Part shown: one piece after another, positions 57,585 through 64,000 of the stretch
Position numbering within the stretch: position 1 is the first letter of the stretch
How the letters are laid out: every line of letters begins with the position of its first letter
NCBI GenBank assembly: GCA_021782995.1
Contig: JAJXUI010000003.1
Coordinates: 1-64,000 of the forward strand
Length of the DNA stretch: 64,000 bases
Source: Pseudomonadota bacterium
GTDB lineage: Bacteria > Pseudomonadota > Gammaproteobacteria > Burkholderiales > Gallionellaceae
Reading direction: 5' to 3'
Notes under the pieces: generated by a model
Told to the model about the DNA's origin: nothing
The model's database searches: none
The model's input: only the letters and a program-made list of their open reading frames with translations
Translations under genes and position numbers: made by a program

Positions 57585-58787
57585 TTGGGTATGGAACAGC
57601 GCGAAGTTATTGAAATCATTAAACGAGGATCCAGTGAATTATTGCTGGAAGCTGAATTGAAACAGAAGCTGGCTCAGGGACGACCGCTGCGTATCAAGGC
57701 CGGATTTGACCCTACTGCACCAGACCTGCATCTGGGACATACTGTTTTGATTAATAAATTGAAGCAGTTGCAGGATCTTGGGCATCAGATATTGTTTCTG
57801 ATCGGAGATTTCACCGGCATGATTGGTGACCCTACCGGAAAAAATGCCGCACGCCCGCCCCTGTCACGTGAACAGGTGAAGGCGAATGCAGATACTTATC
57901 AGGAACAGGTTTTCAAGATACTGGATCCGGCAAAGACCGAAGTGGTATTCAATTCCACCTGGATGGATAAGTTCAGCGCAGTGGACCTGATACGCCTTGC
58001 CTCTACCCATACGGTTGCACAGATGCTGGAGCGGGATGATTTTTCCAAGCGCTATGCCGGCAATCTGCCAATCGCAATTCATGAATTCATCTATCCGCTG
58101 GTGCAGGGGTATGACTCTGTTGCCCTCAAGGCGGACATCGAGCTGGGCGGCACTGACCAGAAATTCAATTTGCTGATGGGGCGCGAGTTGCAGAAGCATT
58201 TCGGCCAGCCGTCGCAATGTATCCTGATGATGCCCTTGCTGGAAGGGACGGATGGCATTAACAAGATGTCCAAATCGATGGGCAACTATATTGGCATTAC
58301 CGATACGCCGCAGGATATGTTCGGCAAACTGATGTCTATCTCGGATGAACTGATGTGGCGCTATCTGGAGCTGTTGTCATTCGAGAGCATGTCAACCATC
58401 AAGGGCTGGCAAGAAGAAGTGAACCGGGGCAGGAATCCGCGGGACATCAAGGTGATGCTGGCGCAGGAGTTGGTGGCGCGTTTCCATAGCCGCAAGGCTG
58501 CCGAAGATGCGCTGGCAGAATTCGAGGCGCGCTTCAGGCAAGGTGTATTGCCTGACGACATGCCCGAAGTTATGGTCAGTTCCAGTGACGGAGGCATAGG
58601 GATAACGCACCTGCTGAAACAGGCTGGCCTGGTGGATAGCACATCAGATGCGATACGCATGATTGCCCAGTCTGCGGTCAAGCTGGATGGCGAGCGGGTG
58701 AGTGACAAGACGTTGCAGATCAAGGCAGGCGCCATCGTTGTGGCGCAGGTAGGCAAACGGAAATTTGCGAGGATTACTGTCAGTTGA
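57585..58787 (+). CDS. tyrS: Tyrosyl-tRNA synthetase
   Basis: [37 protein letters not shown]-terminal S4 domain. Confidence 0.96.
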
Positions 58788-58915
58788 TTTGTTTGGCGGG
58801 TAATTGTTACAACGACAATTAATATAATATAAACATATACTTATATAATTTACTGCAGAGAGAAGGCGCAATGCCAGCGGGCTTATGCCTGGGAAGCTTC
58901 AGCCTGATCCGGCCA

Positions 58916-58942
58916 TAAAGTTTCGACAATGCTTGCCGATAA
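58916..58942 (+). promoter_or_regulatory. Sigma-28 (FliA) promoter
   Basis: TAAAGTTT-N11(CGACAATGCTT)-GCCGATAA: exact match to the canonical FliA -35/-10 consensus and spacing. Confidence 0.82.
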
Positions 58943-59359
58943 GCCTAAATAACTGGCACAAGAGTCAATATCGGGCGTGAATTATCGGCAGACAGAAGCT
59001 CAATGGAAATACTCAACCAGTACCAAGCTGACGTGAATAAACTGAACCCATTTCGAAATACGTAGCGGGTTTTGACTGCAACATGCAGGATCGAATGGAA
59101 AGTTAAGTCTACTGACGAAATGGATGATTAATGTCTGCCAAGATGTAGCTCTGCATTTCCATTTGACTATTCCAACCTGGGGCCGGACGTGATAATTGAA
59201 GTGCAAATGCACTGAAGCGTGAGCTGCAGCGAGCGGCAATTGATGCGATACTTGGCCAGAGGCATTGTTTTCAGGCTGGTGCATTGCGAGGGCTGTAAGG
59301 CACAGTTACCTTGTGCGGGCTATATTTATGACAGAAGTGGCGGACGATACGGCATACGC

Positions 59360-60559
59360 ATGAAAACAGAATACATTGCAAAACATGCTTGGCAGGCTGT
59401 AACACTGGTTGCGGGTGAAGTGCTGCTTTTTGCATTTGGCGAGCCTATGCTTGCAATGCTGGTATACGCAGTGCCTGTGATTCTATGGAGCCTGCTGGGG
59501 ACTGCCGGCAGCATCAGGGAGGAAGCCGAAAGCGAATCTGTAAATGAGTCTCAAGCGGGCCGGCCAGAACAATCCAGGGTGGCGCTGCTGCAAGACGGAT
59601 TTGCCTCTTTGAGGCAGGAGGTCATGGATTTGATTGATGAAGTCGGCTCTGATCTGTCTCAGCAGCGCAGTGTCCAGTCAGACGCGGTCAGGCGCCTGAT
59701 TGCAAGTTTCCAGAGCATTGAATCGCTGATCAGGGAGCAGACCAGGCTGTCGACGGGCGTTATCAATATTGTTAGCCACAAGCAAGCTGATACGGATATT
59801 TCGGAAACCAGCCACTTTGATGAAATTGTCGGGATTGTGCACCGCATGGCTGACAGCATATCAAGCAACGGACAATCCAGTGTGGAAATGGTGCAAGTGT
59901 TTGCCTCTCTGAAAGGGCGTATTGAAGCGGTGACGCAATTGCTGGGAGAAATGGAAAGCATCAGCAAGCAGACCAATCTTCTGGCCCTGAATGCGGCAAT
60001 TGAGGCGGCTCGCGCAGGAGAATTCGGCAGGGGATTTGCTGTAGTGGCCGATGAGGTCAGGTCGCTATCGGCCCGGAGTGGCGATTTTTCCAGCCAGATT
60101 GAGGCTGAGACATCGGGAATGCGGCAGATCATGGGCAAGGCTGCTGCCATCATTGCAGACCTTGCTTCAAAAGATTTAAACTTGGCCTTGGACACGCAGG
60201 GGCGTGTGCAGCAGATACTGGATGAGGCCGAGAAAAATTCTAGCATGGTTGCCATGCAGCTTGAGCAGATGTCCGCAATTACCGGCAAGGTCGGTATCGA
60301 GGTGGATGCCGCAATCCGTTCTTTGCAGTTTGAAGATCTCTTGCGTCAATTGAATGAAAGAATCGATGGCCGTGTCCAGGCACTGGAAGAGGGATTTGAT
60401 ACATTATTTGATACTGCGGAACAGGGAATCATGAATAACAGTGCTGAAAAAATTGCCGGCCAACTGGAATCTGCGCGTCTCAAAATGCACCAGGCAGCAA
60501 CACATCGCGTGAGTGTACATCAGGAAAACATGGATGGCGGCGATGTTGAGCTTTTCTGA
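59360..60559 (+). CDS. Methyl-accepting chemotaxis-type protein with a minimal N-terminal membrane module
   Basis: Two N-terminal hydrophobic segments, then MCP hairpin [42 protein letters not shown]. Start chosen at internal ATG. Confidence 0.82.
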
Positions 60560-60580
60560 TTTTTACGCGGGATGAATGGC

Positions 60581-60952
60581 ATGAAAAGGCTGCTGGTGGT
60601 GGATGATGAGCAACCCATTCGTTCAATGCTCAATGACCTGTTGGGTGATGACTACGAAGTCATGCTGGCTGCAAATGGCCAGGAGGCGTTTGCATTGCTG
60701 AACAGCCATTCATTTGACCTGATCATCACTGATCTGGTCATGCCTGAAATGAATGGCATCGATCTGATCACTTCAATACAGAAAATCAGTCCTGATCTCA
60801 AAATTATCGCCATTTCTGGCGGTGGCGGTCTCAATGGCAGGTTTGACTACTTGCCGGTGGCTGAGCTTTTGGGTGCAGAAAAGATATTCCGCAAACCTTT
60901 CGAGCTGAGCAAGCTGAAGAAAACCGTGGATGCCATGCTGGGCCAGCATTGA
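60581..60952 (+). CDS. Single-domain response regulator (CheY-like)
   Basis: MKRLLVVDDEQPIRSMLNDLLGDDYEVMLA...LIITDLVMPEMNGIDL...IFRKPFELSKL. Confidence 0.92.
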   Translation: MKRLLVVDDEQPIRSMLNDLLGDDYEVMLAANGQEAFALLNSHSFDLIITDLVMPEMNGIDLITSIQKISPDLKIIAISGGGGLNGRFDYLPVAELLGAEKIFRKPFELSKLKKTVDAMLGQH

Positions 60953-61041: not shown

Positions 61042-64000
61042 ATGAGCGAACAACCTGACTTGAGCGGTAAACAGGCATTTGCAGAACGTTTGAGCGTCAT
61101 GCGTTCCGAGTATGTCCGGAATTTGCCTGGCAAACTGTCCAGCATGCAATATGCCTGGGATGCAATTCAGCATAAAACAGCTTCTTCTGAAACAATAGAC
61201 TCCCTTTACTGGGCAGCCCACAACCTTTCCGGGTCTGGCGGCACATTCGGTTTTCCGGACATTACAGCGACCTCAAGATCCTTATTGGCAGCCCTGATGG
61301 ATTTCAAGCATGCGGGCTACCGGCTTGATGTCGAGTCAGCTGCTCAAATTGGCAAAGCACTGAATGCCCTCGGCATCGCAATCAGGCGTGAAGTCGTGAA
61401 TGGCAACCTGCAGGCAGTTACACTGATTGATGACTCTGGCAACGAGCGGGGACATGAAATGCGGCGGCAGGTGTATCTGGTTGACTCCGACAGTGAGTTT
61501 GCATACAGGATTGCAGAGAAGTTGCAGAACTATGGCTATGCAGTCAGAATCTTCGAAGGCACTGCAGAATTCGAGGTGATGGTGGCGTCCGGACGGCCAG
61601 ATGCCATCCTGATGGAAATGTCGCTTCCATCAGGAGCGTTTGCGGGAGCAGACTGCATATTGAGGCACAAGGAAAGTCTTGACGGCATTCCAGTCATTTT
61701 TCTCAGCAGGCGTGATGACCTGGAATCAAGATTACATGCAGCACGCGCAGGTTCCTATCATTATTTTGTCAAGCCGGTTGATATGCCTCTGTTACACCAG
61801 AAACTGGATTGGGTGACCAAATTCTGGGGAAAACCGGAATACAAGGTGTTGCTGGTAGATGATGATGAATACCTGACCGGGGTATATAAGTCGATATTTG
61901 AAGCTGCGGGCATAACGGTCAGTTTGCTGAATGACCCAGCACTGGTCATCGGGAAAATGCAGCAGGACATGCCGGACCTGATCCTGCTTGATGTCAATAT
62001 GCCGGGAATCAATGGGCTCGAGCTTGGGTCAGTCATCAGGCAGTTCGAAGCCTTCATGCACATTCCGATCGTTTTCCTCACCGCAGATGTAAATATGGAC
62101 AAGCGTCTTGCGGCGATGCATCTGGGGGGGGATGATTTTCTTGGAAAGGGCGTTGCCCCTGCATTCCTGATTGAGGTGGTCCGTACCCGAATTGAAAAAT
62201 CCCGCAACCTGAAATCCGGCGAGCAGCAAATCAAGAAACTGATCCATGAGTATGAGAACCTGCGAAAAGCACAGGATAACCACTCCATGATTTGCACGAT
62301 TGATCCTGCGGGAAATATGACGGACGTGAATGACAGGATGTGCAGTAGTACGGGTTATACAAGAGCAGAGTTGCTGAATAAATCCTTCAGAATGCTGGGT
62401 TCCGAAGTGAACCCGGCGTCATTTTATGACAGGATGTGGGACATACTGTGCCAAGGCAAGGTGTGGCAAGGCCAGATCCAGAAGAGAACGAAAAGCGGAC
62501 AGCCATTATGGCTGGATGTCACGACAACGCCTATACAGGATGGGTTCGGAACTATCGAGAAATTCATTTCGATAAGAACCGACATTACAAAACTGAAAGC
62601 GCTGGAGCTGGGTCTGCGCGAAGAACGGGAGCGTCTGACGCTGGCTATGGAAGCAACCAACACGGGATTGTGGGAGTGGAACATTGCCGAGAACGCAACT
62701 TATTACAGTGAGCGATGCAGGAAATTGCTGAATATGTCACCGGAAGTCGACATTTCCTGGCCAGAGCTTATTCATCCTGATGATTTTGATGTTGCAGTGG
62801 AACAGTTGGTGCGCCACATCATTGGAGAGGTCGGGATGTATACCTCCGAGCACAGGAAAATAAATGCTGACGGCGGTTGGGATTGGGTGCTGGAGAGTGG
62901 AAAAGTGGTAGAAACCGATGAGCAGGGTGAAATCGTGCGCATGATAGGCACCATGCAAATCATCAATGCGCGTAAAGCGCTTGAGGCAATACAGGAGCAG
63001 CTCAGCAGGCAGCTATTGCAGTCTTCCAAAATGGAAGCCATTGGCCAATTGACCAGTGGTGTTGCACATGACTTCAATAATATCCTTGGCGGAATGCTTG
63101 GATATGTTGAGTTGTCGACGGGTTTGCTGGGGCGTGACAATCCGAATCTGGACAAGTTGCAGCGGTATCTTGGTGAAATCCAGAGTGCAGGTACGCGGGC
63201 AAAGGAGCTTGTTGAACAGATGCTGGTTTTCTCCAGGCTGTTGCCCGAAGCTGAAGAGCAGGCCCAGCCCGTTACCCGGGTTCTGCCTGTGGTCAAGGAA
63301 GTCATCAATCTCCTGATATCAACGATCCCTGCAACTATCAAATTGAGTTTTCATTTGCCTGAAGAGGATCTCAGGACGGCGATACAGCCAGTTCATCTGC
63401 ACCAGATACTGCTGAATCTCGGAATCAATGCGAGGGATGCCATAGGTAAGTATGGCGAGATTGATATCAAGGTGGGCAAGTCCGAAATTTCCGGGCTGGA
63501 ATGCGCATCCTGTCATCAGCGATTCACAGGAAAATTCATTGAATTGATCGTCAAAGACAATGGTTCCGGCATACCGCCGGAAATTCTGAACAAGATCTTC
63601 GATCCTTTCTTTACGACCAAAAGCGCTGATAAGGGTACAGGCATGGGGCTGGCGGTTGTGAGCAGTGTGGTACACCCCCTCGGCGGGCATATTCGGGTGG
63701 AAACGGAACCGGGCCGGGGATCAATGTTCAGGATATACCTGCTTGAGGCGGAGGGAGGGCTGGGCGAAAGCCTGCAGGGAAGTGGCGAATCGGAAATGGA
63801 GGTGCCGGGGCTCACCGGAGTGCGCATATTGCTGGTCGATGATGAACATACCATGGCTGCAATGCTCAAGGAATTGTTGAGCATCAATGGCGCAGAAGTT
63901 TCTGCTTTTACTGATTCAGGGGCGGCTCTCAGGGAATATTTGCTCAGGCCGGATGAATTTGACCTGGTCATTACGGATGAAACCATGCCGGAGCTTACCG
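61042..64000 (+). CDS. Hybrid histidine kinase: Hpt - pseudo-REC - REC - PAS - PAS - HisKA/HATPase - REC (truncated by window end)
   Basis: Manual translation from ATG 61042 stays open to the edge: Hpt WAAHNLSGSGGTFGF; REC1 VYLVDSDSE...AILMEMSLP; REC2 VLLVDDDEY...LILLDVNMPG; H-box TSGVAHDFNNILGGMLGYVELS; KDNGSGIPPEI; terminal ILLVDDEHTM. Confidence 0.88.
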   Translation, partial: MSEQPDLSGKQAFAERLSVMRSEYVRNLPGKLSSMQYAWDAIQHKTASSETIDSLYWAAHNLSGSGGTFGFPDITATSRSLLAALMDFKHAGYRLDVESAAQIGKALNALGIAIRREVVNGNLQAVTLIDDSGNERGHEMRRQVYLVDSDSEFAYRIAEKLQNYGYAVRIFEGTAEFEVMVASGRPDAILMEMSLPSGAFAGADCILRHKESLDGIPVIFLSRRDDLESRLHAARAGSYHYFVKPVDMPLLHQKLDWVTKFWGKPEYKVLLVDDDEYLTGVYKSIFEAAGITVSLLNDPALVIGKMQQDMPDLILLDVNMPGINGLELGSVIRQFEAFMHIPIVFLTADVNMDKRLAAMHLGGDDFLGKGVAPAFLIEVVRTRIEKSRNLKSGEQQIKKLIHEYENLRKAQDNHSMICTIDPAGNMTDVNDRMCSSTGYTRAELLNKSFRMLGSEVNPASFYDRMWDILCQGKVWQGQIQKRTKSGQPLWLDVTTTPIQDGFGTIEKFISIRTDITKLKALELGLREERERLTLAMEATNTGLWEWNIAENATYYSERCRKLLNMSPEVDISWPELIHPDDFDVAVEQLVRHIIGEVGMYTSEHRKINADGGWDWVLESGKVVETDEQGEIVRMIGTMQIINARKALEAIQEQLSRQLLQSSKMEAIGQLTSGVAHDFNNILGGMLGYVELSTGLLGRDNPNLDKLQRYLGEIQSAGTRAKELVEQMLVFSRLLPEAEEQAQPVTRVLPVVKEVINLLISTIPATIKLSFHLPEEDLRTAIQPVHLHQILLNLGINARDAIGKYGEIDIKVGKSEISGLECASCHQRFTGKFIELIVKDNGSGIPPEILNKIFDPFFTTKSADKGTGMGLAVVSSVVHPLGGHIRVETEPGRGSMFRIYLLEAEGGLGESLQGSGESEMEVPGLTGVRILLVDDEHTMAAMLKELLSINGAEVSAFTDSGAALREYLLRPDEFDLVITDETMPELT

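Follow-up and report, generated by a model that had tools for sequence, protein, structure and literature searches.

Does a FliA (sigma-28) promoter bring a sensory gene cassette lodged among housekeeping genes into the flagellar late regulon? This question is raised by a locus in the 64,000-nucleotide stretch of DNA analyzed here (hereafter the window), which comes from contig C73 of a 2.75-Mb assembly that is 85% complete. Among the closest known systems is the FliA regulon of Escherichia coli. Its members include tar-tap-cheRBYZ, tsr, trg, aer, and, for c-di-GMP, yhjH and ycgR (PMC4183435, PMC2859248), and tar-tap-cheRBYZ is driven there by a site that fits the consensus at each of its 16 positions (PMC4183435).

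Results

The first-pass annotation had claimed a perfect FliA promoter between tyrS and an MCP-type gene, and a pattern scan bears this out. Scored against the published consensus TAAAGTTT-n11-GCCGATAA (PMC2859248), the sequence TAAAGTTT-N11-GCCGATAA, in full TAAAGTTTCGACAATGCTTGCCGATAA, agrees at 16/16 positions and in spacing, with 0 mismatches, and transcription would be predicted to start near 58949-58951 (~58950). There is no second sigma-28 match in the window even when up to three mismatches are tolerated, a laxity at which 0.27 would be expected. From base composition, perfect matches are expected by chance 1.6e-5 times per 64-kb window and 7e-4 times per 2.75-Mb assembly. One arm of an exact 9-nt inverted repeat (TGCCGATAA/TTATCGGCA, 58934-58942 and 58982-58990) overlaps the −10 element; we dropped its reading as an operator, as it is one of six weak repeats and TTATCGGCA is absent from the aligned stretch of the congener G004 described below.

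Downstream of the site lie genes for an MCP-type receptor, a stand-alone receiver, and a large hybrid kinase (Table 1), and a membrane MASE3 hybrid kinase past the window end is the fourth gene of the cassette. Gaps of 13-90 bp between the genes allow a single operon without proving it. These neighbors are largely those of the first-pass annotation—tyrS, the MCP-type gene, and the large hybrid kinase are all in place—except that its "CheY-like" regulator should not be named CheY, because it is a receiver-only protein that shares just 34% identity with the CheY of this genome. The receptor has a hydrophobic N-terminal hairpin (hydrophobic segments are confined to residues 13-52) and a signaling domain with hairpin tip (PF00015, 83.9 bits), the tip agreeing with those of receptors that use CheA/CheW. 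There is no periplasmic domain: Pfam gives the signaling domain only, and thus no extracytoplasmic ligand-binding domain, which is usual in MCPs but not obligatory. Gene order parallels the MCP-cheY-cheA stretch of the same genome (C73:92499-96213), in which a short-type MCP (34% identical to that of the cassette over 281 aa) likewise precedes one receiver gene and then a kinase gene. However, the kinase there is CheA, whereas in the cassette it has the architecture HPt-REC-REC-PAS-PAS-HisKA-REC, and the two receivers differ to the extent given above.

Table 1. Features of the tyrS-cassette region (window coordinates)
Feature	Coordinates	Strand	Basis or remarks
tyrS, upstream boundary of cassette	57585..58787	+	PF00579, 2.6e-83
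Putative FliA (sigma-28) promoter	58916..58942	+	−35 TAAAGTTT, 11-nt spacer, −10 GCCGATAA; 16/16 match here and in G004
5' leader, ~410 nt	58943..59359	+	No Rfam match; folding not unusual; + strand free of terminator-like sites
MCP-type receptor, 399 aa	59360..60559	+	PF00015, 1.6e-23, 83.9 bits; 48% identity to G004 MCP
Stand-alone receiver, start 60572 or 60581	60572..60952	+	PF00072, 5e-23; 78% identity to G004 gene
Hybrid kinase, HPt-REC-REC-PAS-PAS-HisKA-HATPase-REC	61042..64000 (ends 64245, past window)	+	Pfam; 51% identity to G004 over 1045 aa

A FliA homologue is encoded at C73:113799 (273 bits, above the curated cut-off), on the same contig as the site, and this contig also carries flhD, flhC, motA, motB, two cheV, cheZ, cheA, an MCP gene, and cheY, together with a second cheA, cheW, cheR, cheD, cheB, flhB, flhA, and flhF, all assigned from sequence; cheZ was verified by Pfam (PF04344, 256 bits). 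Genome-wide, FliA-like sites with at most two mismatches number 13, against 1 for a reversed control pattern. They include sites upstream of fliC (flagellin, one mismatch), flgM (two mismatches), and MCP-like genes (at most two), these genes being named by eye. Strictness of the match matters, because the contrast is far weaker at up to three mismatches (36 versus 25 for the reversed control). A search of 37 genomes of the lineage gave five exact matches to the pattern and none to its reversed control: two of the five sites head the cassette, another two are located in front of flhDC in other genera, and one precedes an outer-membrane protein gene.

Comparison with four other members of the genus reveals that one of them, G004, has the cassette in the same slot (tyrS ... 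rpsU-yqeY-dnaG-rpoD). Its site, 8 nt past the tyrS stop codon, is also 16/16, so that the 16 motif bases are identical in the two carriers, whereas the spacers agree at a single position out of 11 and the flanks give a poor alignment. No other evidence speaks as strongly for selection on the site as this retention of the motif beside a diverged spacer. Gene order in G004 is tyrS, the perfect site, an RR-HD-GYP gene, the MCP gene, the receiver gene, and the HPt-REC-REC-PAS-PAS-HisKA-HATPase-REC kinase gene, with the identities listed in Table 1; the MASE3 hybrid kinase is 51% and 43% identical to its counterpart over two stretches. The cassette contig of G004 stops inside another kinase gene. 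Its final 60 bases are found again close to the end of contig C58, where genes for a MASE3-type hybrid kinase and one more kinase come next, and then rpsU, yqeY, dnaG, and rpoD. The cassette of our genome extends to C73:67525, and rpsU, yqeY, dnaG, and rpoD come after it. Because these four genes follow the cassette in each carrier, the slot appears to be identical in both, in G004 by way of this presumed contig join. The three congeners that lack the cassette pass from tyrS to rpsU within about 80-145 bp, and none of the three has a FliA-like site after tyrS, a gene that in congeners is 82-83% identical to ours. No close orthologue of the MCP, receiver, or kinase was found in the other genomes among 159 of the family; the carriers are thus two genomes, each less than 90% complete.

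The receptor has a further feature in its C-terminal part, where the stretch LQFEDLLRQ (60323-60349) contains the motif DxxxQ within an FxDxxxQ region (60320-60349, residues 321-330). Short MCPs of che clusters form a family, to which the cassette MCP and its paralogues belong, with the near-invariant form LQF[QEH]D[MLI]xxQ on the C-terminal arm 112-113 residues past the tip; the motif is absent from all inspected complete MCPs of other types. In the catalytic region of CheZ, AXXFQ adjoins the phosphatase motif DXXXQ (PMC7750401), and the matching stretch of the genome's own CheZ reads AQDFQDLTGQ. The CheZ profile PF04344 has no match on the MCP even at E = 10, and the FxDxxxQ motif alone is common to both; because of this lack of a profile match, the likeness is one of motif only.

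Discussion

The reading that we favor, with a probability of about 85%, is that the site acts as a class III promoter through which FliA controls the sensory cassette, with transcription and signaling of the cassette along the lines set out here. That the site itself is a working FliA promoter is very probable. Because a perfect FliA site precedes the cassette and the same site stands before the same genes in a related bacterium, the cassette is probably switched on with the flagellum. After completion of the hook-basal body and export of FlgM, FliA-RNA polymerase would initiate near 58950, and the transcript would cover four genes: those for the MCP-type receptor, the receiver-only regulator, the cytoplasmic HPt-REC-REC-PAS-PAS hybrid kinase, which is without a hydrophobic stretch, and the membrane MASE3 hybrid kinase. 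The MCP would most likely enter the main CheA/CheW array, whose genes lie at a distance of about 30 kb, and the kinases and small receiver may form a phosphorelay that tunes flagellar behavior. The earlier proposal that the cluster belongs to the flagellar late regulon thus gains support from the presence of FliA and a set of FliA-type promoters in the genome, from the site kept in G004, and from its absence at cassette-free tyrS loci.

There are similarities with the E. coli regulon, in which perfect or near-perfect TAAAGTTT-N11-GCCGATAA sites also drive receptor genes that are not among the structural flagellar genes and which also includes c-di-GMP genes, much as the first gene of the G004 cassette is RR-HD-GYP. 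The differences are that here one receiver-only protein and two large hybrid kinases come after the receptor, and that the cassette lies between tyrS and rpsU-dnaG-rpoD. Since receptors under FliA control are textbook knowledge, the surprise is modest and the cassette would be a sound if rather ordinary extension of a known control system. What would be added to the late regulon, in a betaproteobacterium-like lineage, is a multi-kinase sensory cassette beside housekeeping genes with a FliA promoter of its own, whose hitherto unassigned kinases and receiver thereby gain a testable role in motility.

The main weakness of the promoter reading is the distance of 417 nt between the −10 element and the MCP start codon (ATG 59360). 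Most intragenic FliA sites of E. coli that are separated from a start codon by over 300 nt give no detectable transcript (PMC4183435); unlike these, the present site is intergenic. The start codon was chosen by homology, and an N-terminal extension from GTG 59219 was rejected in its favor, being absent from the G004 homologue. A leader of this length would also suit a quite improbable alternative, in which the FliA-driven product is a short leader-derived RNA rather than the cassette mRNA, as in E. coli, where four sigma-28-dependent small RNAs are taken from UTRs (PMC10578931). Against it, the leader has no Rfam match, no terminator-like site on the + strand by terminator scan, and a fold no better than those of shuffled sequences (z = 0.29); the Rfam and folding results also led us to reject a riboswitch. 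Nor is the leader conserved: that of G004 is ~140 nt long and leads into the RR-HD-GYP gene, and our leader has no similarity to the G004 region or to this gene, of which it is not a recognizable relic (tblastn gave no match). Transcription of the cassette by other means, the match being due to chance or decayed and unused, seems very unlikely. One weak sigma-70-like site does lie upstream (58812-58841, 9/12) and tyrS has no clear terminator after it, which could permit read-through. However, this must be set against the chance expectation for the window, against a G004 site that is perfect despite its diverged spacer, and against the co-occurrence of site and cassette.

A different question is whether the cassette, rather than feeding the main array, forms an independent chemosensory system that is merely timed with flagella and in which its own kinase replaces CheA. 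This is compatible with a FliA promoter but on balance unlikely. In its favor, the hybrid kinase adjoins the MCP and receiver in both carriers, and its N-terminal HPt resembles that of CheA ("AHNLSGSGGTFGF" against "AHSIKGGAGTFGF", 32% identity over 50 aa). This HPt, with its His codon at 61219-61221, is weak here (21.4 bits, below the cut-off) compared with G004 (32.9 bits, above it), and by alignment the acceptor position of REC1 is Glu (61615-61617) rather than the Asp of the G004 orthologue. Searched for the combination of HPt and CheW-like P5 that marks a CheA-type kinase, the protein proves to have no CheA P3/P5 or CheW domain, which argues against the replacement of CheA, as does an MCP tip like those of CheA/CheW-using receptors. 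Moreover, the HPt-REC-REC module recurs in other genomes of the order (about 27-38% identical), where it is attached to GGDEF at all nine other loci inspected, none with an MCP beside it, whereas the output of the cassette protein is PAS-PAS-histidine kinase-REC. Entry of the MCP into the main CheA/CheW array remains our preferred scheme.

Whether the CheZ-like motif has a function is a separate matter. That the short che-cluster MCPs, including that of the cassette, would themselves dephosphorylate a response regulator through it is doubtful. If they did, the FliA-driven cassette would unite a receptor that is also a phosphatase with a receiver and kinase of its own, a finding more novel than the promoter; we found no chemoreceptor with a CheZ-like motif in the literature titles and abstracts screened, which does not prove that none exists.

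Several FliA-like sites elsewhere merit mention. The same genome has a second perfect site (G000:C7:52864-52890, minus strand), which lies 64 nt before the second gene of a tandem pair encoding related outer-membrane-type proteins. It also has two sites with two mismatches (G000:C37:21969-22791) before two adjacent genes for small outer-membrane beta-barrel-like proteins. In two other genera (G022 and G017), perfect sites lie upstream of flhC, probably with flhD in between, which suggests possible FliA feedback on the flagellar master operon.
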